The notes below the pieces were generated by a model. It did not search any database, was not told where the DNA came from, and saw nothing but the letters and a program-made list of their open reading frames with translations. From NCBI GenBank assembly GCA_033763895.1, contig JANRJQ010000002.1, positions 1 to 53,816 on the forward strand: 53,816 nt of DNA. Reading direction: 5' to 3'. This document shows, piece after piece, positions 12,254 through 46,360 of this stretch (positions are counted from its first letter, which is position 1; every line of letters starts with the position of its first letter). Made by a program: the position numbers and the translations under genes. Source of the DNA: Chloroherpetonaceae bacterium. GTDB lineage: Bacteria > Bacteroidota > Chlorobiia > Chlorobiales > Thermochlorobacteraceae.

Positions 12254-12326
12254 ATACTCTGCTTGGTTGATTAAACTTTCTACTGCATTGCATAAAATAA
12301 CGGTTGTGGTCGTGTGCAAGTGTGCT

Positions 12327-12412
12327 GACCTCACCCTGTTTCGGCTTGTGCCGAAACGACCCTCTCCTTGCAAGGAGAGGGACGTTGCCGCTTGCGGCAT
12401 CAGGGTGAGGTC
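12327..12412. repeat. 86-bp nested palindromic (cruciform) element
   Basis: Outer arms GACCTCACCCTG (12327-12338) and CAGGGTGAGGTC (12401-12412) are perfect 12-bp inverted repeats. They enclose three perfect hairpins: TTTCGGC/GCCGAAA (12339-12356), a 22-bp uninterrupted palindrome (12360-12381) and TGCCGC/GCGGCA (12386-12399). It is GC-rich compared with its surroundings. It supplies the last codons and the TGA stop of the methylase gene. It looks like a non-autonomous mobile or REP-like repeat; only one copy was seen in the window. Confidence 0.8.
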
Positions 12413-15400
12413 ACCACCACCGCAATCTCTTCCGCCGTTAAGCCATAAAGCGCATAAACCTTTTCATCAATCTCCCGCTCAAACCCCGCCGTCTCTTCGC
12501 CCACAGACTTCGCAGCAATTACCGTTTTTACCAATTCAACAATCTGTTTCTCTGTCTCGACTGAATCGGGTTTGGCGATGCCAAAAGCGTTTAGGTAATC
12601 GGGCGTAAAAGCAAAATAGCCGCCGCGAAAAATTGTACCTGTATTTTTTAAAAAATACCAAAGCAGTTCTGAGTTCAGTAAGCCTATCAAGTAATGATAG
12701 TCAAGTATAATTCCGCTCTTTTTAATCAAGCCAAAGCATTTTGTATTACCGTAAAAAATGCCTTCCAAATCAGAACTAAACTGACTTTTCAGCCCTAAAT
12801 ATGGACATATCAACTTTGGCTTATCAAACAAAGTCAAGTTTTTTGGATAGATATAACGAAACCAAAATTCGTCGTGCATCAATTTTCCATTTTCTCTTTC
12901 TCGCAAAACTTGTTCATTCTTTTTTAGATACGCATAGCCTTTTGGGAAAAGCGTTTTGATTTCTTGCTCCGTGTAAAGAGCGGCTTTACCATTGTTGAGT
13001 TTGTAAGGGAAAATTACATAGTTATTTGTTTTTAAGGTTTCGTAGCGATGCACTTGGTCGCCTTTAAGCAAGGGCTTTACAAGACCGCACTCGATTTCTA
13101 CTTCTTGGTCAAGTTCTTTGGAATAGCCTTTAATGATGTAGCCGCTGTTCGTGCAATTCAAGAGGAAATACACCGAGTCTTTAGATGTTGCAATCCCTTG
13201 AAAGATTTTCTCAAAAATGTCTTTAACCTTTAAAGGTTGCTGCTGAATTTTCTTGAGAATATTATGGGTTTGGTTATCTGAAAGAATCCACCCTTCGAGG
13301 GAAAGCGAATCAGGGTTAAATGTATTAAATCGTGAATCATCGAGTTCATTTAGAAAATGGTGAAGGTCTTCATTAGTCAATAAATCTCGGTTTAATTGAA
13401 AATAATTAAGGTGATTTGAATTGGGTATAAACCATTGCAGACCCGTATAAGTGGAAGCATTAAATACTTGATAGGCTTCAAAGGAAATTATTTTCTGTGC
13501 TGCTTTATAATTTTTCACGACTTCTCGAAGTCCTTTTCCAAATGCGGAATTTGTCCATTTTACAGGCATGATATAATTCAATATCCCTCTATGTGTGAGC
13601 AATTCGAGCCCTCTTTCCACAAAGAGTACATATAAATCAAAAGAGCCTGTCGCTGAATTAAAAATACTTGCAAGTAAATTGGCATAAGCACTATTAACCT
13701 TTCGTATTCCTTGAATTCGTAAGTAAGGCGGGTTCCCGATAATAACATCAAAGCCTTTTGAAATGCCAAACATCCAGTTTTTGTCAAAAAAGGGACTTGG
13801 TATTGAGTCATTGAATGGGTCCCACACGTCAAGTCTCGCTGCAATAGAAGCAAAAAGCGGCGGGCCTTCTTTCAAGTCTGTAAGCGTACTTTGTTTGGTG
13901 TTTTCGAATTTGGCTTTAATGAGTGCTTTCTTTTCAGGGTCGTGAGCATGATCGTAATAGGTATTTCTCAGCGTTTGCAGTTCGGTGAGGTGCTTTTTAT
14001 AGGCTTCAAAAAAGATATTAATCTCAGACGTTTTTTCAAGTTCCTCGAGTCCTAATCCTATTAAGGTATCGGCACAAATGAATTTAAAATCAAGGTTGGG
14101 CAGGGGCTTCAAGTTGAAATTGTGTTTTGTGTCTATGGGTTTATACTCTTCATCCAAAACCAATGAGAGCCACGCGCGAAGCCGTGCGATTTCGGTGGCC
14201 ATCGGCATAATATCCACGCCATAGATGTTGTGGCTTAAAATATCCTTTTTGAGTTCATAACGGGTTTTGAGTGTGCCCAGTGCTTCGTTTAACTCCACCA
14301 ATTGATGCAAGGCTCCCATCGGGAATGCACCCGAGCCGCACGCGGGATCCAATATTTTCACGTCTTCTATCCAACGAAGCAGCTTTTGACGGTCCTCTTT
14401 GCTTTCAATGGCTTTCTCGGGATTTTGAGAAAAGAGTTTGGTGAGGCTTTCATCAATCAATTTTTTTTCTGACTTGGAAAGTTCTGCTTTTTTGAGTGGG
14501 ATTGAAAGCTGTTGATGCGGTTTTTCTCCAAAAAGATTTGGAGTGGGTTCGGGGTTATTGAGTGCTTCGGTTTTGGCCGAAAGAATCTCCTCTTCCCACC
14601 GCGAGGCGAGAAATGTTTTGAGGCTTTCGCGCACCATATAATCCACAATTTCGCGGGGCGTATAAAACGCGCCAAAGGCTTTGCGGTCGTTGGCTAATTG
14701 TTCGGTTTCCTGATTTTGGCTGGCCAAAAGGTTTTCGAAAATGCGGCCAAGCATTTCGGGGTCAACGGCCACTTGTTGGTAGGTGCTGCTGCTTTCATCA
14801 ACCGTGAAGTCGTAGCTTTCGAGGGTGGAAACAAATTCTAAAAGCCACACATCAATGGAAAGCGAAGGAATTGCACGGTCTTCGGCGCTGAAATCAAAAA
14901 GGCCGCCATTGAGATACGGAACTTTAGAAAAATGTTCGGCTGCAAAGGGGTGGATTTCTGTATGCGCACGATCTTCAACTTTGGTATTGAGCGTTTTGAA
15001 AAAGAGCGCCGATAAAATGGTATTGAAAAAATCAGGATTTGCGTCAATGGCTTTGGTGCCAATTGATGCAGTCGGGATGATGCCCTTTTCCTTGAGAAAC
15101 CAACAAAAGATATAGCGGCCAATGAGGCGAATGGCAAATTGTTTTTGGAGCCTGTCTTCGATGGCAGGATACTGATAGCGAATAAGACCAAGCAGTTTAT
15201 CGAAACTTTCTTTTATGGCTTTGTAAAACTCCTTATTGACCTCTTTAATATCAAGCGACTCCCAAAGCACAGTTGCAATATCAGGTTTAGGAAGCCGTTC
15301 AATCCCTTGCCATTTATGGAGAATTTTTTCGTGTTGGGTAACCGTAAGCCGATTAGCAAATGTAATAATGCGCTTTTGATTGCCTTTATTAAGGACGATA

Positions 15401-15831
15401 AAAAGCTTTTGATAGTCGGGCGTAGTAACAAAATGGATAAAATAGGGACGAGTTGAAGGAAGCGCGGCGGGGCTTCCTTCACCACCTGCATTCATGAGAG
15501 ATTCAAAGGCTTGGTAACTTGTTAGGCCCGGGTCGTTATCGACCAGTTGAACGAGCGTGTCTTTGCGTATTTTTTTTAGAACAGCAAATCGCACGAGAAT
15601 TTTAGTATGGTATGCAGAAAGACGGAATAATTGTGCCTGATTGGTGATTGGCGCGCCTGCAAGCCACTCGCGGAGTTTTTGAGTTTGAGGTGTAATGAGT
15701 GGCGGTTTCTGAAATGGTTCTGCGGGAATGCCCATCCACTCTAAAAGGGCAGAAGAAAAGGCAAGAATATGGTCGCGTTTTCCTTCGGAAAATTTGGAAA
15801 GAAGTTCATTTAAGCGAGGTAATGACATCAT
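12400..15831 (-). CDS. Eco57I-type adenine DNA methyltransferase with TaqI-like specificity region
   Basis: 1143-residue N6-adenine methylase of the large Eco57I/type IIG kind. An N-terminal helical region (about 1-330) has RYIFCWFLKEKGII near 250 and precedes the SAM-binding motif I DPACGSGAF (495-503) and the catalytic NPPY motif (700-703). The C-terminal half carries a TaqI-type target-recognition region ending FRGGYFAFTPDYLNAFGIA. No N-terminal PD-(D/E)xK nuclease motif is obvious, so cleavage may be provided by the preceding PLD-helicase gene (12-bp gap, same strand). It would methylate the host recognition site and define target specificity. The last four residues and the stop lie in the cruciform repeat, so the original C-terminus may have been altered by its insertion. 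Confidence 0.85.
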   Translation of the reverse strand: MMSLPRLNELLSKFSEGKRDHILAFSSALLEWMGIPAEPFQKPPLITPQTQKLREWLAGAPITNQAQLFRLSAYHTKILVRFAVLKKIRKDTLVQLVDNDPGLTSYQAFESLMNAGGEGSPAALPSTRPYFIHFVTTPDYQKLFIVLNKGNQKRIITFANRLTVTQHEKILHKWQGIERLPKPDIATVLWESLDIKEVNKEFYKAIKESFDKLLGLIRYQYPAIEDRLQKQFAIRLIGRYIFCWFLKEKGIIPTASIGTKAIDANPDFFNTILSALFFKTLNTKVEDRAHTEIHPFAAEHFSKVPYLNGGLFDFSAEDRAIPSLSIDVWLLEFVSTLESYDFTVDESSSTYQQVAVDPEMLGRIFENLLASQNQETEQLANDRKAFGAFYTPREIVDYMVRESLKTFLASRWEEEILSAKTEALNNPEPTPNLFGEKPHQQLSIPLKKAELSKSEKKLIDESLTKLFSQNPEKAIESKEDRQKLLRWIEDVKILDPACGSGAFPMGALHQLVELNEALGTLKTRYELKKDILSHNIYGVDIMPMATEIARLRAWLSLVLDEEYKPIDTKHNFNLKPLPNLDFKFICADTLIGLGLEELEKTSEINIFFEAYKKHLTELQTLRNTYYDHAHDPEKKALIKAKFENTKQSTLTDLKEGPPLFASIAARLDVWDPFNDSIPSPFFDKNWMFGISKGFDVIIGNPPYLRIQGIRKVNSAYANLLASIFNSATGSFDLYVLFVERGLELLTHRGILNYIMPVKWTNSAFGKGLREVVKNYKAAQKIISFEAYQVFNASTYTGLQWFIPNSNHLNYFQLNRDLLTNEDLHHFLNELDDSRFNTFNPDSLSLEGWILSDNQTHNILKKIQQQPLKVKDIFEKIFQGIATSKDSVYFLLNCTNSGYIIKGYSKELDQEVEIECGLVKPLLKGDQVHRYETLKTNNYVIFPYKLNNGKAALYTEQEIKTLFPKGYAYLKKNEQVLRERENGKLMHDEFWFRYIYPKNLTLFDKPKLICPYLGLKSQFSSDLEGIFYGNTKCFGLIKKSGIILDYHYLIGLLNSELLWYFLKNTGTIFRGGYFAFTPDYLNAFGIAKPDSVETEKQIVELVKTVIAAKSVGEETAGFEREIDEKVYALYGLTAEEIAVVVTSP

Positions 15832-15843
15832 AAAAATTTGGAA

Positions 15844-18800
15844 TTAGACGGTGAACACTTGGAGAACATCAGCTAAGCTTGGTATTTCTTCTCCTGTTGA
15901 AGAATTGGGTTGTTCTGAAAACTTTAAGAACGTTTGAATAATGCCATCATCAAACGCGTTCCCACGGCGATTGGCGCGGTTGATGTCACGAATAAGGCGT
16001 CTGGTTTCTTTGATTAAAAAGGAATTCGAGGTATGATTAATGAAATCATCGACTTTCATAATATCGTTTTCGGCATACCCTAAAGTAATCATACGGCGAA
16101 GCAGCGTGCCGATTGCTTCACGATGGGCTTCATTGAAACGATTATTGTGCTGAGCAATCGGAATTTGGTAATACTCTTTGAAATGCTCTAAGTAGGTTTC
16201 GAAAGGTGCTTTTTCTTTGAAGTTATCTCTGAAGCGTTTATTTTGTTCAACTGATGCTTTTATATAGAGAAGTCCTTCATTAAGCGTAATCTGCTCCGGG
16301 ATAATTTCGCTTTTTTGGCGTTTAAAGAGGAAAAAATAGCCGGAAGACTCTGTTGTATCAGTACCTGCAGAAAAATGAACCAAATAATTAAACCCGTCAT
16401 CGTCTTTCTTCCGCTGGATTTTGCCCCATTTCCCTTTAGGAAGGTTGATAATGCTTTGTTTATAAGATTCTGAGAAATTGGTGTTTCGGTCAAATTCTCG
16501 TAAGTCTTCGAGGAAGATGTCATCGGTAGCCAGTAATTCGGAGGTTTCAAAGATGCGTTGAAACGCGGCGAGTCGTTTTTGTTCATCGCGGCTGTAAAGG
16601 TCTTCGGAAAATTCCTGTGAGATAGGCTCTTCGTCAAGAACGCTTTGGTCTGTGCCGACGGAATAGCGTATGAGATTAATCTTATCTTGAAGTTTACTAA
16701 CCAAATTCAAATAGCTTTCAAGTTGCTCGGTTGGTCTGAAATTATAGATGAATATTTCTTCAAACGGGCTCCCAATACGATTTATACGGCCATTGCGCTG
16801 AATCATACGAACCGGATTCCAATGCAAATCATAGTTGACAATCATTCCGCAATCTTGAAGGTTTTGCCCTTCAGAGAGTTTATCGGTAGCGAGTAAGTAA
16901 TCAATTTCTTTTTCACCCTGCTTCAAGGCGTATTTCTTCGCGTTTGGAGCAAAACGGCAAGCAAAGTTTTCAACCTCATTTTTTGTACCGAGTGCAAACT
17001 CCACATTTTTTCCTTTCGTCAGAAGTTGGGGGAGATGTTCTTTGAGATACTGAAGAGTATCGGCAAAGTAGGTAAAGACTAATACTTTTCGATCGTCATT
17101 TGTATTGAGGTGTTTTGCTAGAACCGCAATCTTATCATCTTTTTTGATCAGCAATTGAATTTGCTTTTTTAAGATGTCAAGAAGGCGGAGGTCTTTTTCG
17201 ATGTCTTCTTTGAGAGTTTCGATTCTAAAGTGCGCGTTGCTTGCTTCAATAGGTGCATTCTCGCCAAAGTCAAAGGAATCAATATCAATATCGAGTTCAT
17301 CTTCCTCGGCATTTTGTTCGTTATAGGAATCAAGCACTTTATTGAGAGCGTCTAAGTTTTTTATCGAAAAAATGCGATTGTATTTCAAGAGATTGTTTTT
17401 GAAATCGGTTAGCTTTTTTTCGTAAGTGATGATGGATTTTTGAATTGAAAAAATTGATGATTCCAGCCGCTTTAGGAATACCGTTCTAAAAATACCGTAA
17501 ATCCCGATTTGGCGAGTTAAAAGCCGGTTATCATCGACATCAAGATTAAGATCGTCTCGATTAATCCCGTAGTATTCGTGGCGGTAAATATTATAGCGAT
17601 AGCAAGGGAAACCAAGGCAAAGAATTGCAGAATAGATAATTTCGAGAGATGAGTGAATTGGTTTTTCTCTTTTTGAATAATGGTCAAAGAGGTCAAGTGG
17701 ATGTGCAAGAAACTTGAGTTCGGCTAAGCTATCGATATTGAAATTCAAAGCCTCAGATAGTAAAGGATATTCTTTAGAAAGTTTAAGAAGATCGGAACGG
17801 TATTGATTGGGAACTTCGTACTCTAAATTGTCTGGAATTGACTGAGGAAATTTTACTTTTTTTCCATTGATTTCAAGTCCCTCAGGGTATTCTTTTTCGA
17901 TTCCTTGCCGGGTACGTTTTACAATTACTTTGTTTAAGAGAGGGGTAAGTTGTTCTCTTAAACCGCTGTAATCAACAGACCTTGTTTCACGAATTTGTCT
18001 TTTAATTTCTTTTTGAATGCTTTGTATTCGGTCTTCGAAGGTGATGTATTCGCTTCGTGATCGATCATAAAACTTACCGATAGTTTGAAACTCGCCTCCC
18101 GATCCCAGCATGATTTGATTGGTAAGATCAGTGAGTTGGTTGTTTATGGGTGTTGCAGTCAGTAAAAGTGTTTTTGAATTTGGGTTAAGCCTTCGCCAGT
18201 CGATAAATTCTTTGAACCTATCTCCGCCGCTTCCACGAAGGTTATGGCTTTCATCAAACACAAATAACCCGATTGGGATGTTGTAAACTTCTCGAGTTTG
18301 CTTGATTTTGGCAATATCCTGTAAACTGTAAATTTCAGGTAAGTGGGCAAATTGAAAGTCATTAAATGCTGATTGCCACTGCGGTATGAGGCTTGCAGGT
18401 GCAACAATTACCACACGTTGATTTTTGATGTTTTTATAATAAGAAATGACCTTTATTGCCGTGTAAGTTTTACCTAACCCTACTGAATCAGAAAGCATTG
18501 CCACACTTTGGCGTTCAAGTTTTTTAATCAGTGAATTTGAATTTTTAACCTGAAAAGGAAAAAGTGTGGGTGAATTTTCGTCTTCTGTTTCTTTATCGAA
18601 GACAGAATTTTTCTCATCGTTTAAGTCTTCTCCAAAAATCCTGTAAAGTGAGTGGATATACATTTCATATGGGCTATAACACATAGAGCCGTGTCGGCTT
18701 AATGTCAGAATTTCTTCAACAAAAACCTTTGTCCAAGGTTCACTTTCTTGCCAAAGACTTTCGAACCAAGAGCGATGCGAAGGATGTTGGGAGATGTTTT

Positions 18801-19350
18801 TTCGGATATAATTAACCGTTGCGTTATTGTCTTCCACCTGATTGAGCTCTAAATTTCCTTCGAGTCCCTGTTTAGTGAAATTTGAGCTCCCAATTATTCC
18901 AATCGCATTTTCTTCTTCAGAGCCAAAGATGTAGCACTTCGCGTGGAGAAATGACTTTTTATATACGCGTATTTCAAAACGGCTGTCAGCATTTTCAGAA
19001 GAAAATTCTTGAAGGAGCTTTGCTGCAGAAGAATACTCGTCTTTAAAGCTTAAGGTTTCAAGATCTCTTTTGAGGTACTTCTGAGGAAAATCGGGATCTG
19101 GTTTTGAAGGATTTTTTATTTGATATGATCGCACACTTGGTTCTTCACCTAAAAGCAGGTGCAAACGAGTATTTCCTCTATTAAAAAAATAAGATAGTTC
19201 CGATTGTAGTAAAGCAATTGCTGGTAAATCCCAGTAACCGGTAGCAATTGAAACTTCAGATACCGATGGGTTTTTGAAAAGATTCTTTAAGGTTTCTGAT
19301 AAGAGGTAATCTTTGCTTGAATTATCAATAAGCTTAAAATTGCTTTTCAT
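15844..19350 (-). CDS. PLD-nuclease/SNF2 helicase fusion, restriction/defence
   Basis: 1168-residue protein. Residues about 10-190 form a phospholipase-D-type nuclease domain with the HxK motif FLHAKCYIF (His136, Lys138) followed by GSSNFT. Only one HxK is evident, so an active site would need dimerisation. A SNF2/SF2 motor follows: Walker A GLGKT (291-295), DESH (366-369), TATPINN, a long insertion, then the C-terminal lobe with FTYFADTLQYLKEH, TDKLSEGQNLQ and QRNGRINRIGS (about 845-860). PLD nucleases with SF2 motors act in restriction systems such as NgoAVII and CglI, where they are separate subunits. The neighbouring methylase suggests a two-gene restriction system in which this protein translocates and cleaves. 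No frameshift was seen. Confidence 0.85.
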   Translation of the reverse strand: MKSNFKLIDNSSKDYLLSETLKNLFKNPSVSEVSIATGYWDLPAIALLQSELSYFFNRGNTRLHLLLGEEPSVRSYQIKNPSKPDPDFPQKYLKRDLETLSFKDEYSSAAKLLQEFSSENADSRFEIRVYKKSFLHAKCYIFGSEEENAIGIIGSSNFTKQGLEGNLELNQVEDNNATVNYIRKNISQHPSHRSWFESLWQESEPWTKVFVEEILTLSRHGSMCYSPYEMYIHSLYRIFGEDLNDEKNSVFDKETEDENSPTLFPFQVKNSNSLIKKLERQSVAMLSDSVGLGKTYTAIKVISYYKNIKNQRVVIVAPASLIPQWQSAFNDFQFAHLPEIYSLQDIAKIKQTREVYNIPIGLFVFDESHNLRGSGGDRFKEFIDWRRLNPNSKTLLLTATPINNQLTDLTNQIMLGSGGEFQTIGKFYDRSRSEYITFEDRIQSIQKEIKRQIRETRSVDYSGLREQLTPLLNKVIVKRTRQGIEKEYPEGLEINGKKVKFPQSIPDNLEYEVPNQYRSDLLKLSKEYPLLSEALNFNIDSLAELKFLAHPLDLFDHYSKREKPIHSSLEIIYSAILCLGFPCYRYNIYRHEYYGINRDDLNLDVDDNRLLTRQIGIYGIFRTVFLKRLESSIFSIQKSIITYEKKLTDFKNNLLKYNRIFSIKNLDALNKVLDSYNEQNAEEDELDIDIDSFDFGENAPIEASNAHFRIETLKEDIEKDLRLLDILKKQIQLLIKKDDKIAVLAKHLNTNDDRKVLVFTYFADTLQYLKEHLPQLLTKGKNVEFALGTKNEVENFACRFAPNAKKYALKQGEKEIDYLLATDKLSEGQNLQDCGMIVNYDLHWNPVRMIQRNGRINRIGSPFEEIFIYNFRPTEQLESYLNLVSKLQDKINLIRYSVGTDQSVLDEEPISQEFSEDLYSRDEQKRLAAFQRIFETSELLATDDIFLEDLREFDRNTNFSESYKQSIINLPKGKWGKIQRKKDDDGFNYLVHFSAGTDTTESSGYFFLFKRQKSEIIPEQITLNEGLLYIKASVEQNKRFRDNFKEKAPFETYLEHFKEYYQIPIAQHNNRFNEAHREAIGTLLRRMITLGYAENDIMKVDDFINHTSNSFLIKETRRLIRDINRANRRGNAFDDGIIQTFLKFSEQPNSSTGEEIPSLADVLQVFTV

Positions 19351-19420: not shown

Positions 19421-19545
19421 GTTAGCTCTTCGAGAAAAGCTCGACATTAAAGACGCCCTCGACACGCTTAATTTTTTCGACAAGGCGGTAGAGGTAGTCG
19501 ATATCTTTCGTTTGAAGAATCGCGATGCATTAAACTATTCCGTTT
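19421..19545 (-). pseudogene. relA/spoT 3'-end fragment, copy C
   Basis: This matches the last about 120 bp of the relA/spoT gene at roughly 78% nucleotide identity by eye. The minus-strand reading frame is intact to a TAA stop and yields the RelA tail (RLVEKIKRVEGVFNVELFSKS; shared core EKIKRVEGVF). It has no start or upstream gene. It lies 70 bp upstream of the PLD-helicase gene and occupies most of the 357-bp gap 19351-19707. Interpreted as a scar of insertion or duplication at the relA 3' end. Confidence 0.75.
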
Positions 19546-19592
19546 TTTTGAATATATAGGGATTGTGTGAGAGTTTTTGATACTTCAAAAAA

Positions 19593-19677
19593 GTGTTATT
19601 GAATACTTTGAATCAATCTTCGTTTTCAATGTTTATGAATAACGGGAATTGAAATTTATTAGAGGCATGAAGCATTT
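19593..19677 (-). pseudogene. DUF2283 antitoxin-like gene remnant
   Basis: This is clearly homologous to the last about 28 codons of the intact DUF2283 gene at 21296-21511 (EMLHASN, FQFPLFI, then the same terminal TTCAAAGTATTCAATAA). A one-base deletion near the end shifts the frame. The 5' part is missing; the TPR gene ends 30 bp away. With copy C it repeats the order DUF2283-relA 3' end found at 21121-21523. Confidence 0.7.
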
Positions 19678-19707
19678 CAAAAATTCATATTCATTCTTTC
19701 ATTCATC

Positions 19708-21045
19708 CTATTTTAAGTTTGCCTTTTGTTCTTGAATCTTATTCATTCTGGCCTGAAGACTTCCAATTGCCTTTTGTATTTCAATTGCTAATAAACGAAG
19801 TCTGCTTATTGTTCCATCTAAGGGTGTCATGATAAATGAAATTCGTTCATGATCAATTTGAGTCAGAATATCTTCCACATCTCTCATTTTCTTCATCGCT
19901 TCTGTATCATGACGTTTATTTACTTTTTGACGCAGTACATAAACGATACAATAAATACTCATCTCTGTAAAAGCTTGAGAGTTAATGAGACTTTGGTTAC
20001 ATACGCCATCATGCATTGTCCATTGACCCGAAAGACCCTCCAGACCGCCTGTTCTTAAGAAAGGACTTGTCCGTACATCAATTCTTGAGTTAGAAGCGAA
20101 AGAGGCTATTGCTGCATTGCTTAACTGAGCAATTCTTTTAATTATTGCTAAATTTTCTTGATACTCCGGTGTCATTGCTTCAACAACGATTTCCGGGACT
20201 TGATACACCTTCATTGAATCTTGCTGAGAATTTTGGTATGCCTTAAGAGCGTTTTTTGCTTTTTGATTCCCCTTAAGACTTATTTCCGCCAAATCTTTCA
20301 TTCCTTGATTATTTCCAAGATTTGAGAGTAAAATTCCACGTGCATACCTTGCTTCATCGTAATTTGCATCAAGATTGAGGGCATTATCATAATCCAAAAT
20401 TGCATCGTTGTACTTTCGGTAGAATTCCTTTATTAAAGCGCGTTGATAATACGCTTCCGGTGAAGGTTCTATAACAATGGATTCTGAGAGATCTTTCACT
20501 GCCGCTTCGGGATTTCTAAGTTGGAAGTAACAATATCCTCTATTGTAATATGCTTTTGAATTTCGCGGGCTGTGTTTTAAAAACTGGGTAAAATCGGCAA
20601 TTGCCCCTTCAAAATTCTTTAATGCAATTCGGGTAAGTCCCCTTTCATATACGTAGTTCGGTGTATTAGGGGATAACTGAACGGCTTGGTTAAAGTCAAT
20701 TTGTGCCTCAACAAAATTCCCAAGAGCATTGTAGCATAACGCTCTTTGAAAAAAGGGCTCGGCGCTATCGGGGTAGAATTTAATGACAGTTGAATAATCA
20801 TAAAGCGATCCAAGAGAATCACCGATTACTCGCCTTACTTCTCCTCGTTTCATCAAAGCAGTATAGTTTTTAGGGTCTCTTTGAAGAACATCTGTAAAGT
20901 CCAGTATTGCGCGATTGTATGAACCTGATTGAAATCTTGCTATGCCAAGATTCAATAGACTATCAATTGAAATATTCCTTGTTTGAGCATTTAGACTTTC
21001 TGATAATAACAAAAAGGTAAGAAGTAGGAGACTGAATCGTTTCAT
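19708..21045 (-). CDS. secreted TPR-repeat protein
   Basis: 445 residues. A signal peptide (MKRFSLLLLTFLLLSESLNAQ, about 1-21) precedes about seven tetratricopeptide repeats (about 25-265), recognisable from recurring A--YY-RG-C, AI-DF-- and YP-S/--P---- patterns such as FVEAQIDFNQAVQLSPN and AVKDLSESIVIEP. A C-terminal region (about 280-445) has no recognised family and ends with a predicted coiled coil (QKAIGSLQARMNKIQEQK). TPRs are protein-protein adaptors; the protein probably acts in the periplasm or at the outer membrane. It lies between two relA 3'-end fragments, interrupting a DUF4258/DUF2283 unit, which suggests it came in by insertion or rearrangement. Confidence 0.8.
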   Translation of the reverse strand: MKRFSLLLLTFLLLSESLNAQTRNISIDSLLNLGIARFQSGSYNRAILDFTDVLQRDPKNYTALMKRGEVRRVIGDSLGSLYDYSTVIKFYPDSAEPFFQRALCYNALGNFVEAQIDFNQAVQLSPNTPNYVYERGLTRIALKNFEGAIADFTQFLKHSPRNSKAYYNRGYCYFQLRNPEAAVKDLSESIVIEPSPEAYYQRALIKEFYRKYNDAILDYDNALNLDANYDEARYARGILLSNLGNNQGMKDLAEISLKGNQKAKNALKAYQNSQQDSMKVYQVPEIVVEAMTPEYQENLAIIKRIAQLSNAAIASFASNSRIDVRTSPFLRTGGLEGLSGQWTMHDGVCNQSLINSQAFTEMSIYCIVYVLRQKVNKRHDTEAMKKMRDVEDILTQIDHERISFIMTPLDGTISRLRLLAIEIQKAIGSLQARMNKIQEQKANLK

Positions 21046-21120
21046 ATAAATGTTGTGGGGTTAGATGATTTTAATCCTATAAATCTCCCAATTATTGAAA
21101 AAAAAAGATTAAGAATCCAT

Positions 21121-21263
21121 TTAGCTCTTCGAAAATCGATCAACTTTGAAAACACCTTCGACGCGTTTGATTTTTTCAATAAAGCGGGAATGATGATCGG
21201 TGTCTTTGACTTGAAGAATCACGGTGCATTCAAATATTCCGTCTTTTGCATTCAGGGTGATGA
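21121..21263 (-). pseudogene. relA/spoT 3'-end fragment, copy B
   Basis: About 140 bp matching the 3' end of the real relA/spoT gene at close to 89% identity by eye. The minus-strand frame is open to a TAA stop and encodes the same tail (core EKIKRVEGVFKVDRFSKS). Most differences are synonymous or conservative. There is no start codon or upstream domain. It lies between the TPR gene and the DUF2283 gene and explains a spurious plus-strand reading frame at 21055-21291. Confidence 0.8.
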
Positions 21264-21295
21264 AATTGAGTGTATAGTAAATATTTCTTAAAGGG

Positions 21296-21511
21296 TTATT
21301 GAATACTTTGAATCATTTTCTCATTTTCAACTTCTATGAATAACGGGAATTGAAGGTTATTCGAAGCATGAAGCATTTCAAGGCCTACGATGTTTCCATC
21401 TTTATCAAAGTCTAGAATCAGACCTTTCTTTATTTCATCTGATTCCTTAATTTTTGCACCTGAAAATTCAATTCTCAATATATCCACAGATTTATCATAA
21501 CTGATTTTCAT
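21296..21511 (-). CDS. DUF2283 protein, putative antitoxin
   Basis: 71 residues of the DUF2283 family: MKISYDKSVDILRIEFSGAK, then KGLILDFDKDGNIVGLEML. The start at 21511 is set by a good Shine-Dalgarno sequence (GGAGG, 5 nt upstream) and by its one-base overlap with the DUF4258 stop (TAATG), implying translational coupling. DUF2283 genes often accompany DUF4258 genes, and the pair is regarded as a putative toxin-antitoxin module; that function is inferred, not demonstrated. A TTG four codons upstream is an unlikely alternative start. A truncated relative lies at 19593-19677. Confidence 0.82.
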   Translation of the reverse strand: MKISYDKSVDILRIEFSGAKIKESDEIKKGLILDFDKDGNIVGLEMLHASNNLQFPLFIEVENEKMIQSIQ

Positions 21512-21762
21512 TATTCCCTCCAATATTTATTGATTTTAGAAGTTAAGTAAAGGGTAATAACTCTCTTTGGCTCATCTTCTGCTACAAAAATCCTCAAAAG
21601 ATACAATTTCTCTTCCCCAATATCGACTTTTGATTGATAAACCCAAATATTGCCTTCATCTTGAAAAAATTGATCCGGCGTTTGTAAAGTTTTTTCAACT
21701 AAAGCGATATTAATATTTCGACGAATAATCTCTTTTTTTGCATAATCAGTAAAAAGAATCAT
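21511..21762 (-). CDS. DUF4258 protein, putative toxin
   Basis: 83 residues resembling DUF4258 proteins. It begins FTDYAKKEIIRRNI, a helix typical of RelE/BrnT-like small toxins, then VEKTLQTPDQFF and a beta-rich second half with KLYLLRIFVAE and KRVITLYLTSKINKYW. These are predicted RNase-like partners in toxin-antitoxin pairs. The stop codon overlaps the start of the DUF2283 gene by one base, and the partner's ribosome binding site lies inside this gene. The pair sits directly downstream of relA/spoT, 49 bp from its stop. Confidence 0.75.
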   Translation of the reverse strand: MILFTDYAKKEIIRRNINIALVEKTLQTPDQFFQDEGNIWVYQSKVDIGEEKLYLLRIFVAEDEPKRVITLYLTSKINKYWRE

Positions 21763-21811
21763 AATTATGATATAAGTGATGGTTCAAATATCAATAACGG
21801 TATAAAAGGAC

Positions 21812-23995
21812 TCAGCTCTTCGAGAATCGCTCGACCTTGAAAACGCCCTCGACGCGTTTGATTTTTTCAACGAGGCGGGAGAGATGATCGGTGTTTTTGA
21901 CTTGAAGAATCACGGTGCCTTCAAACATTCCGTCTTTTGCATTGAGAGTGATAGAGCGGATATTGGTTTCTGCCTTTAAGATGGCTTGGGTAATGTTATT
22001 CGTCATTCCAATTTTATCTTCTCCGAAAATTTTAAGTCCGGCAAGGAAGTTGTTTTCTTTTGTATTGCGCCAGCGTACGCTCACGACTTTAGGGCTGCGG
22101 GTAAGGTTTTCATCGGTCATGTTTTTGCAGTTTCGGCGGTGAACTTTCACCACACCGCCGGCTGTCACCAACCCGATAATATCATCCCCCGGAACGGGAT
22201 TGCAGCACTTGCCGTAAGCAAAGGCAATATTTTTAAGCCCTTCAATTACGATAGCCGATCCAGTAACCTCTGATTGTTCATCAGTTTCAAAACGCGCTTC
22301 TTTAACAAAACTTTCAAACTCTGCCAATTGCTTTTCAGCTTTTTGCTCAGGCGTCTCAACTTCGACTTTAACCGACTCGGGGTCAATTTGCTTTGTTGCA
22401 AGCGCTTGAAAGAAATCTTGCGCTGTGTTGATTCCAAACCGGCGAGCGATTTTTGCGATATCACCTTCTGAAAAAACTTTTTTTGTTTTTTGAACGGCTT
22501 TCGTCCAAAGGCTTTTGCCTTCTTCAATTTCCTTTCTGCGCTGATCGTTGAGCAATTGTCGAATTTTTACCTTCGCGCGATGTGTAACAACAATCTTTTC
22601 CCAATCGGGTTTTGGCGTTTGATTTTTTGAGGTAATGATTTCGACTTGATCGCCCGATTTTAGTTTGGTAGAAATCGTTACAATCTTTCCGTTAACTTTA
22701 GCCCCAATACATTTTGAACCCACTTCGGTATGAATTTCAAACGCAAAATCAAGTGGGGTTGAACCCACCGGGAGCATTTTCATATCACCTTTTGGTGTGA
22801 AAATGTAGATTTCATCTTGATACAAATTCATTCGAAAGCCTTCCATAAACTCGCGCGGCGAGGAGGCGTTTTCAATGAGTTCGCGTGCCCATTTCAGCAC
22901 ATTATCAAAGGCTTTATCATCGGTTGTGATTTTCTCTTTATACCGCCAATGCGCGGCAACCCCGCTTTCGGCGAATTCATCCATCTTCTTGGTTCGAATC
23001 TGGATTTCAATTAATTGGCCATTGGGTCCGACAACCGTGGTATGAAGGGATTGATACCCGTTATGTTTGGGAACTGAGATATAATCTTTAAAGCGTTCCG
23101 GAATTGGTGTGAATTGCTGTGTAATGTACCCGTAAACGGCAAAGCATTCTGAAGAGTTATCAGTGTCGAGAATAATTCTGATGGCGTAAAGATCATAGAT
23201 TTGATCGAAACTTTTTCCTTTATCGACAATCTTTTTATGAATCGAGTAAAGGTGTTTCGGTCGGTAAGCGATGCTGAACTTAAAATTCCGTTTATGCAGT
23301 TCCTTTTCAATCGTAGCGGCAAAGCGCGCTAAATAATTTTGACGATCTTTATCCTGAAAATTGATTTGAGAAGACAGGGTTTCGTAGGCTTCGCGATCGA
23401 TGTACTTAAAGGCCAAATCTTCTAACTCCGATTTCATTCTTCCAAGCCCAAAGCGATTAGCAAAGGGCGCGTAGATATCACGAGTTTCAAGTGCGATTTT
23501 CAACTGGCGGTGCGGTGGTAGTGCATCGAGTGTACGCATATTGTGCAACCGATCGCAAAACTTGATGAGAATCACTCGGATGTCGTTAATCATTGAAAGC
23601 AGCATTTTGCGAAAAGATTCTGCTTCTTTGATTTCACGATTGGCAAAAAAGCCGGCAATTTTGGTCAGTCCTTCAACAATCGCCGCGACTTCCTCACCAA
23701 ACTCTTCATTCAAGTCGTCAAGGCTGTAATCGGTATCTTCAATCACATCATGCAAAAGCGCGGCGGCGACAGAGACATCATCAAGCGGGAGTTCGTTCAG
23801 CATGATTTTTGCAACCTCAACGGGGTGAAAGAAATAGGGCTCTCCGGAAGCACGTTTCTCCTCACTATGAGCACGGTAACACAAAAAAAACGCACGGCGA
23901 ATCAAATCCTCGTCAAACCGATGAAGCTTTTCGCGGCATAGCGAAAGCAACTCATCAAGTTTGACATAGTGCTGCGGTTCAATTTGTGCAATCAT
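21812..23995 (-). CDS. relA: bifunctional (p)ppGpp synthetase/hydrolase RelA/SpoT
   Basis: 727 residues from the ATG at 23995; a longer frame to 24112 adds 39 residues unlike the family. Domain order: HD hydrolase with HDVIEDTD (His82-Asp83), synthetase with RPKHLYSIHKK, RFKDY and HNGYQSLHT, TGS (about 385-450), a Cys-rich segment AYGKCCNPVPGDDIIG, and a C-terminal ACT domain. RFKD (301-304) matches the RxKD signature of bifunctional Rel/SpoT enzymes rather than the ExDD of synthesis-only RelA, and the HD site is intact, so both making and degrading (p)ppGpp is expected. Two partial copies of its 3' end lie downstream. Confidence 0.95.
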   Translation of the reverse strand: MIAQIEPQHYVKLDELLSLCREKLHRFDEDLIRRAFFLCYRAHSEEKRASGEPYFFHPVEVAKIMLNELPLDDVSVAAALLHDVIEDTDYSLDDLNEEFGEEVAAIVEGLTKIAGFFANREIKEAESFRKMLLSMINDIRVILIKFCDRLHNMRTLDALPPHRQLKIALETRDIYAPFANRFGLGRMKSELEDLAFKYIDREAYETLSSQINFQDKDRQNYLARFAATIEKELHKRNFKFSIAYRPKHLYSIHKKIVDKGKSFDQIYDLYAIRIILDTDNSSECFAVYGYITQQFTPIPERFKDYISVPKHNGYQSLHTTVVGPNGQLIEIQIRTKKMDEFAESGVAAHWRYKEKITTDDKAFDNVLKWARELIENASSPREFMEGFRMNLYQDEIYIFTPKGDMKMLPVGSTPLDFAFEIHTEVGSKCIGAKVNGKIVTISTKLKSGDQVEIITSKNQTPKPDWEKIVVTHRAKVKIRQLLNDQRRKEIEEGKSLWTKAVQKTKKVFSEGDIAKIARRFGINTAQDFFQALATKQIDPESVKVEVETPEQKAEKQLAEFESFVKEARFETDEQSEVTGSAIVIEGLKNIAFAYGKCCNPVPGDDIIGLVTAGGVVKVHRRNCKNMTDENLTRSPKVVSVRWRNTKENNFLAGLKIFGEDKIGMTNNITQAILKAETNIRSITLNAKDGMFEGTVILQVKNTDHLSRLVEKIKRVEGVFKVERFSKS

Positions 23996-46320: not shown

Positions 46321-46360
46321 AAAAAAACGGGTTGAAAACCCATTGGCTTTCAACCCGTTT
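46321..46360 (-). terminator. strong terminator of katG
   Basis: A 13-bp perfect stem, AAACGGGTTGAAA (46325-46337) with TTTCAACCCGTTT (46348-46360), has a 10-nt loop. On the minus strand it is followed by a T-run. It lies 32 bp after the katG stop and insulates the ATPase gene, which must have its own promoter within 46180-46320. Confidence 0.88.

Follow-up and report, generated by a model that had tools for sequence, protein, structure and literature searches.

Probable repeated displacement of a bacterial relA 3' end by successive, recombinase-free cassette insertions

The relA/spoT homolog of a Chloroherpetonaceae bacterium lies within a stretch of 53,816 nucleotides (contig JANRJQ010000002.1 of assembly GCA_033763895.1; hereafter the window), and it is followed there by two additional copies of its own 3' end. 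Along the minus strand, relA with the end now in use (tail0) is followed by a DUF4258 gene, a DUF2283 gene, a first displaced end (tail1), a gene for a TPR protein, the stump of a second DUF2283 gene, an outermost displaced end (tail2), and the genes of a helicase and of a DNA methyltransferase (Table 1). Tail1 (21123-21261) matches the relA end (21814-21952) without gaps over 139 bp, at 88.5% identity (E ~1e-45), and tail2 (19424-19548) matches it over 125 bp at 78.4% identity (E ~1e-22); these are not chance similarities. Both displaced copies keep the RelA frame through the motif EKIKRVEGVF to a TAA stop, while relA itself ends with TGA, and tail2 contains an additional in-frame TAA in its 5' part. 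All three tails are homologous as far as the relA stop codon, and unrelated DNA follows each of them. Each displaced copy adjoins DUF2283 sequence, intact next to tail1 and decayed next to tail2, where about the last 90 bp of the gene remain as two matching pieces (87% and 96% identity). No relA tail beyond these three was found in a search of the window's own genome. An earlier note on this DNA had described the three ends, their reading frame, the adjoining DUF2283 sequences and a restriction-like operon just past the outermost copy, and all of this is borne out, the helicase gene starting 71 bp beyond tail2.

We consider it likely that the relA 3' end was struck by at least two successive recombinase-free cassette insertions, each accompanied by a long duplication of the gene end. 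In each event a cassette would have landed directly behind relA, leaving relA with a complete end, while the previous end and its old downstream DNA would have been pushed away as a dead tail. Because displacement is outward, the tails would run from young to old with increasing distance from relA (tail0, in use, then tail1, then tail2), and we infer the order of the insertions in time from this arrangement. The cargo would have been the DUF4258-DUF2283 pair and, earlier, the segment that now holds the TPR gene and the DUF2283 stump. The proposal of the earlier note that the old relA end was displaced and the gene's end rebuilt, more than once, is supported both by the tails and by a second gene described below.

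Table 1. Features of the relA locus in the window.
Feature	Position in the window	Strand	Basis
relA/spoT homolog (HD_4, RelA_SpoT, TGS, ACT_4)	21812..23995	-	Pfam and open reading frame
tail0, current relA 3' end, duplicated stretch; stop TGA	21812..21952	-	sequence comparison
DUF4258 gene, 83 amino acids, putative RNase-type toxin; probably the youngest insert	21511..21762	-	weak Pfam match, E 7e-4, below curated cut-off
DUF2283 gene, intact, 75 amino acids, putative antitoxin, overlaps DUF4258 gene	21296..21523	-	Pfam PF10049, E 4e-19
Junction, DUF2283 stop to tail1	21262..21295	-	
tail1, displaced relA 3' end, 88% identity to tail0; stop TAA	21121..21263	-	
TPR protein gene, intact, 445 amino acids, cargo of inner insert	19708..21045	-	open reading frame and Pfam
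DUF2283 gene remnant, 3' end only	19590..19680	-	
tail2, outermost displaced relA 3' end, oldest by the model; 78% identity to tail0; stop TAA	19422..19548	-	
PLD-SNF2 helicase, neighbour of the insertions	15844..19350	-	Pfam
Eco57I/type IIG-like DNA methyltransferase, neighbour of the insertions	12400..15831	-	Pfam

What is probably the youngest insert is a DUF4258-DUF2283 pair that resembles a toxin-antitoxin module. A small toxin-like gene (DUF4258, a weak match) overlaps a small partner gene (DUF2283), as in type II toxin-antitoxin modules, and the pair is putatively toxin-antitoxin-like on family grounds only. The DUF4258-like counterpart found at another gene of the same genome, ppc, matches the PBECR2 nuclease family in Pfam (E 5e-9). 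The structure of the DUF4258 protein, predicted without an alignment, consists of two helices and four strands with a mean pLDDT (predicted local distance difference test) of 72; a fold search of the PDB with this predicted structure gave no match at E up to 0.001, and a paper search found no literature on DUF2283, alone or together with DUF4258. The TPR gene has a relative, 69% identical, elsewhere in the same genome (G000:C7:95393-96578, locus L076; G000 denotes the window's own genome, and G001, G003, G005 and so on those of its relatives), and the surrounding 16-kb stretch contains no relA tail.

An empty and a filled state of the same site are seen at the gene for 4-hydroxyphenylpyruvate dioxygenase (HPPD), which is filled in G003 and G008 and empty in G005 and G007, two and two species of a related genus. 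In G003 and G008 a DUF4258-DUF2283 pair starts at the HPPD stop codon, with a displaced tail of about 42 bp behind the pair. HPPD of G005 has a single tail, of which about 41 bp align to both the gene end and the displaced copy of G003, and in the empty gene of G007 39 bp align to both copies. The DNA behind the single tail of G005 is the same as that behind the displaced copy in G003 and G008; the displaced copy thus keeps the ancestral neighbour, which identifies the older junction. HPPD is therefore an established case of insertion with duplication of the gene end. The earlier note had named an empty site with a single 3' end as support for insertion, and such a site exists here, at another locus of the same family of events.

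Duplicated ends recur at other genes. In the window's own genome, ppc (phosphoenolpyruvate carboxylase) is followed by a PBECR2/DUF4258-like gene, a DUF2283 gene and, behind these, a second copy of the ppc end, 60 bp long and 91.7% identical. A second small gene pair, which we take to resemble yefM-yoeB, lies directly behind this displaced ppc tail (L075:7144-7658, G000:C14), as if cassettes stacked there too. We scanned for direct repeats bracketing a locus within 700 bp at E < 1e-4. The class sample comprised all 94 DUF2283 places found in 98 genomes, several of them shortened by contig ends, and the phylum sample outside the class comprised 50 DUF2283 places, a part of those listed there, 3 of the 50 loci being shortened by contig ends. 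Bracketing repeats were present at 16 of the 94 places in the class and at 17 of the 50 elsewhere in the phylum, as against none of 30 control loci for ribosomal protein L21 in the class, none of 30 in the phylum (one of these shortened by a contig end), and 5 of 600 positions drawn at random behind relA in relatives. By our reading, half of the class cases (8/16) concern the end of an intact gene, with two genomes each for HPPD and for a cytochrome c assembly gene (G005 and G008 for the latter) and one each for relA, ppc, the transfer-messenger RNA (tmRNA) gene and, weakly, tgt. At tmRNA, a DUF4258-like/DUF2283 pair lies at the 3' end within a perfect 60-bp duplication made up of the last 19 bases of the gene and the following 41 (L127:3391-3789, G043), and the perfection of this repeat makes the insertion look recent. 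Outside the class, a duplicated stretch of 109 bp from the end of an E2 acyltransferase gene encloses a DUF4258-like/DUF2283 pair; the gene family was tested for only one of the 17 brackets there (L271), and several others look like dispersed repeats. Altogether the scan suggests that footprints of duplicated ends are common around DUF2283 genes.

Three narrower descriptions of the phenomenon were weakened or dropped. That it is a property specific to DUF2283 is weakened by ParE toxin loci, of which 4 in 30 (26 of the 30 having at least 700 bp on both sides) are bracketed too, at two gene ends (L189, L195), by a dispersed intergenic repeat (L190) and by a repeat that derives from the 5' end of the antitoxin itself (L180); the ParE cases that we count as clean are those at an O-acetylhomoserine sulfhydrylase gene, in convergent orientation, and at an HsdR-like gene. 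Strict targeting of 3' ends is rejected as a rule, since 5' ends are duplicated at tgt (L095; a weak repeat of 38 bp at 82%) and at the gene of L270, the latter identified by eye only. A fixed cassette end was likewise dropped: the spacing from the DUF2283 stop to the tail is 34-35 bp at relA and ppc, and other spacings occur at other loci. Repeat lengths also vary, from 139 bp at relA to 60 bp at ppc and tmRNA and about 42 bp at HPPD.

The differences between tails bear on how they arose. Mismatches between tail0 and tail1 fall at codon positions 1, 2 and 3 in the numbers 4, 2 and 11 over 141 bp, and those between tail1 and tail2 in the numbers 7, 7 and 18 over 126 bp (p 0.006 when tested against a share of one third). 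Pooling gene tail against displaced tail for six genes (relA, ppc, HPPD of G003, the sulfhydrylase limited to its repeat, the HsdR-like gene and E2) gives 11, 8 and 35, a third-position share of 35/54, or 0.65; HPPD of G008, an ortholog of that of G003 with one third-position difference, and the cytochrome c assembly tail, which has an indel, were left out. We compared these counts with a simulated serial history in which a tail is copied, the gene copy then changes silently and the other copy decays. The simulated third-position share is 0.45-0.48 (p 0.002-0.008 for the pooled genes), and the tail1/tail2 counts over 126 bp depart from the simulation at p 0.035-0.054. Given this excess over the simulation, part of the tail divergence probably dates from a time when both versions still served as gene ends, in different alleles, and the same excess suggests that donor alleles entered by recombination. 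In addition, the private changes of tail2 are at third positions in 1 of 10 cases in its 5' part and in 11 of 15 in its 3' part (Fisher 0.004; 0.015 with another cut), a pattern that a crossover inside the tail would leave. The idea of the earlier note that the ends came from diverged alleles gains moderate support from the third-position excess.

The elements of a mechanism can be assembled from these observations. The incoming DNA may have brought its own allele of the gene end, and the homology arms for ordinary host recombination would be the gene end on one side and the displaced copy on the other. Such a cassette would need no enzyme of its own and could enter any strain having the gene, whatever sits downstream. 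The upstream junction common to tail1 and tail2 might then stem from a second round, with recombination between the displaced tail of a donor and the tail in use in the recipient; for the formation of the first displaced tail, illegitimate end joining or an unknown enzyme are candidates. Host recombination would explain why no integrase or transposase is present among 18 scanned proteins, why the repeats are variable, why unrelated genes are used in either orientation, and why insertions stack. In its widest form this becomes a tentative proposal, to which we give somewhat less than even odds: that these are recombinase-free mobile cassettes whose mobility device is a displaced copy of the host gene's own end, that they enter empty alleles or stack on filled ones by homologous recombination, that toxin-antitoxin-like pairs of the phylum use this route widely, and that relA preserves a stratified record of its rounds.

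Several results weigh against repeated insertion with import of alleles, in whole or in part. At HPPD of G008 the gene tail and the displaced tail differ at one site only, so that import of an allele is not needed there. The third-position excess is modest and comes from few loci and short sequences; the 3' part of the relA tails, where it is strongest (3, 4 and 17 between tail1 and tail2 in the last 84 bp, that is 17/24 at third positions, p 0.001-0.004 against the simulation), was chosen after looking, as were the cuts of a mosaic test on shared sites, which gave Fisher 0.027 at one cut and 0.11 and 0.27 at neighbouring ones. Both limits of the bracket scan were set after the pattern had been seen. 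No bracket is present at 78 of the 94 class places, and the other 8 of the 16 bracketed ones involve dispersed, whole-gene or unassigned repeats and not clean gene ends: L100, inside a kinase gene and not at its end, the whole-gene copies L104, L105 and L110, and L122, L131, L132 and L149. The repeat at the cytochrome c assembly gene of G005 and G008 is missing from the orthologous DUF2283 places behind that gene in G003 and G007. At relA itself the upstream junction is common to tail1 and tail2, as a block duplication would also give, and, as regards an empty relA site, no second genome of the window's genus occurs among the nine family genomes searched.

Among other explanations, an unknown transposition-like activity fares best. 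It would insert cassettes and copy the target, so that the tails were initially identical and later drifted apart, with silent changes in the gene copy and unconstrained ones in the displaced copy. Repeats of 36-139 bp, variable in length, at the ends of unrelated genes in either orientation and sometimes at 5' ends are what such an activity could produce, and the near-identical HPPD copies of G008 are in its favour. We nevertheless regard it as rather unlikely, since the pooled third-position excess exceeds that of the simulated copy-then-decay history, though not by much, and we noticed neither an enzyme nor a conserved end of the cassettes, though without a systematic search for motifs. Tandem duplication by unequal crossing-over, in which the DUF2283 end together with a dead relA tail was doubled as one block around the TPR gene and then decayed, appears improbable. 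It accounts for the in-register alignment of 19422-19680 with 21121-21381 across the junction (74.9% over 263 columns), in which the DUF2283 end is identical at 75 of 85 positions and the tail at 95 of 129, with a poorly conserved linker (22 of 44) between them. Two dead copies, however, should differ roughly evenly by codon position, unlike tail1 and tail2; moreover, the sequences behind the tails are unrelated, and the ppc and HPPD cases are left unexplained. An integrase-type genomic island, which the earlier note had also envisaged and in which site-specific recombination at the relA 3' end would leave the gene with a complete end, is very improbable even though the tmRNA 3' end, a classical integrase site, is among the targets: a Pfam scan found no integrase or transposase family among 18 window proteins (the remaining open reading frames of the window were inspected by reading only, and the search did not extend to the rest of the genome), no constant attachment core was noticed on case-by-case reading of the borders, without a systematic motif search, and the targets are unrelated, with variable repeat lengths, variable spacing from DUF2283 to the repeat, and 5' ends struck too.

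Repeated cassette insertion remains our preferred reading. In a tree with nine relatives the three tails group together with 92% support, which indicates that they diverged within this lineage; we count this tree, of the kind that the earlier note had proposed, in favour of repeated insertion. A whole-genome protein search found no second relA tail in 40 relatives apart from an apparent case in G005, which was rejected: the end of contig C34 and the start of contig C139 share 141 identical bp there, and the case reads as an assembly break. No second tail was present either in the DNA around relA of 19 relatives, with downstream stretches of about 1 to 18 kb and relA at or near a contig end in G005 and G008. 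In the same set none of 20 window genes besides relA was found downstream of relA, bar a 31% DUF2283 match 8.6 kb away in one relative. A contig scan with RelA matched two distant organisms and was uninformative. One genome of the same family (G001), rated 100% complete, gave only weak partial RelA matches, and the other eight family genomes gave a strong one.

The restriction-like operon is a different matter. The earlier note had suggested that relA is a hotspot for such defence cargo; arrival by the same route would leave a relA tail beyond the operon, and none is there, so the suggestion is not supported. Likewise, a match to the helicase or the methyltransferase was found in none of the 19 relatives behind relA. 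The closeness of the operon to the insertions may be due to chance, or to an older event whose mark is gone. The window also contains a self-complementary stretch at the end of the methyltransferase gene and the start of a DUF559 gene (12322-12417; 98 columns, 78%) and an intergenic 36-bp palindrome (46325-46360; 89%). In a relative, a DUF2283 gene is flanked by two whole-gene copies of about 310 codons, 79% identical (L110:458-3158, G015:C14).

The movement of chromosomal toxin-antitoxin pairs that have no attached mobile element is, in our assessment, poorly explained. Duplicated gene ends offer an ordered footprint of it: the old neighbourhood stays with the displaced tail, the new cargo adjoins the gene end, and the sequence of arrivals can be read from stacked tails. 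Fragments of housekeeping genes can accordingly be displaced ends instead of ordinary pseudogenes. In Escherichia coli the mazEF toxin-antitoxin pair lies directly downstream of relA; the position is alike here and the families are different. Integrative elements at gene 3' ends push the existing end of the target gene aside and supply a new one, and they carry an integrase and a fixed core; the relA end would likewise have been rebuilt and its old end displaced, but no integrase was found in the scanned proteins and no core was noticed.

The closest parallel is insertion with long target duplication, of which a primary description is said to be that of Nobusato et al. in 2000. It has been reported from Helicobacter genomes, and restriction-modification genes are often associated with it (PMC1643837); the duplicated stretches measure around 100 bp (PMC3874152); in the accessible parts of PMC2654758 and PMC3031569 the phrase 'long target duplication' occurs in the reference list only. 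As far as the accessible parts of these reports go, the likeness includes a segment present or absent between relatives, direct repeats of about 100 bp, a target with one copy in the empty genome, and no need of a mobility gene; here the empty one-copy allele is found at HPPD, and the flanking repeats are long and variable. To the same extent, three features differ from the Helicobacter cases: the cargo is toxin-antitoxin-like, the adjoining restriction-like operon having no relA tail on its far side; the clean repeats are ends of intact genes; and one gene end was probably used at least twice. Minimal mobile elements, as presented in the accessible part of their description, are gene cassettes taken up by homologous recombination within the conserved sequences on either side, for which two flanking genes are needed (PMC3082526). 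At relA, by comparison, both arms would come from a single gene, a displaced copy of its own end serving as one of them, and in the 19 relatives no pair of conserved genes enclosing varied cargo was found there. Judged from its sequence features, the present case fits insertion with long target duplication, with another cargo, with gene ends as the targets where the repeats are clean, and with probable repeated use of the same site.

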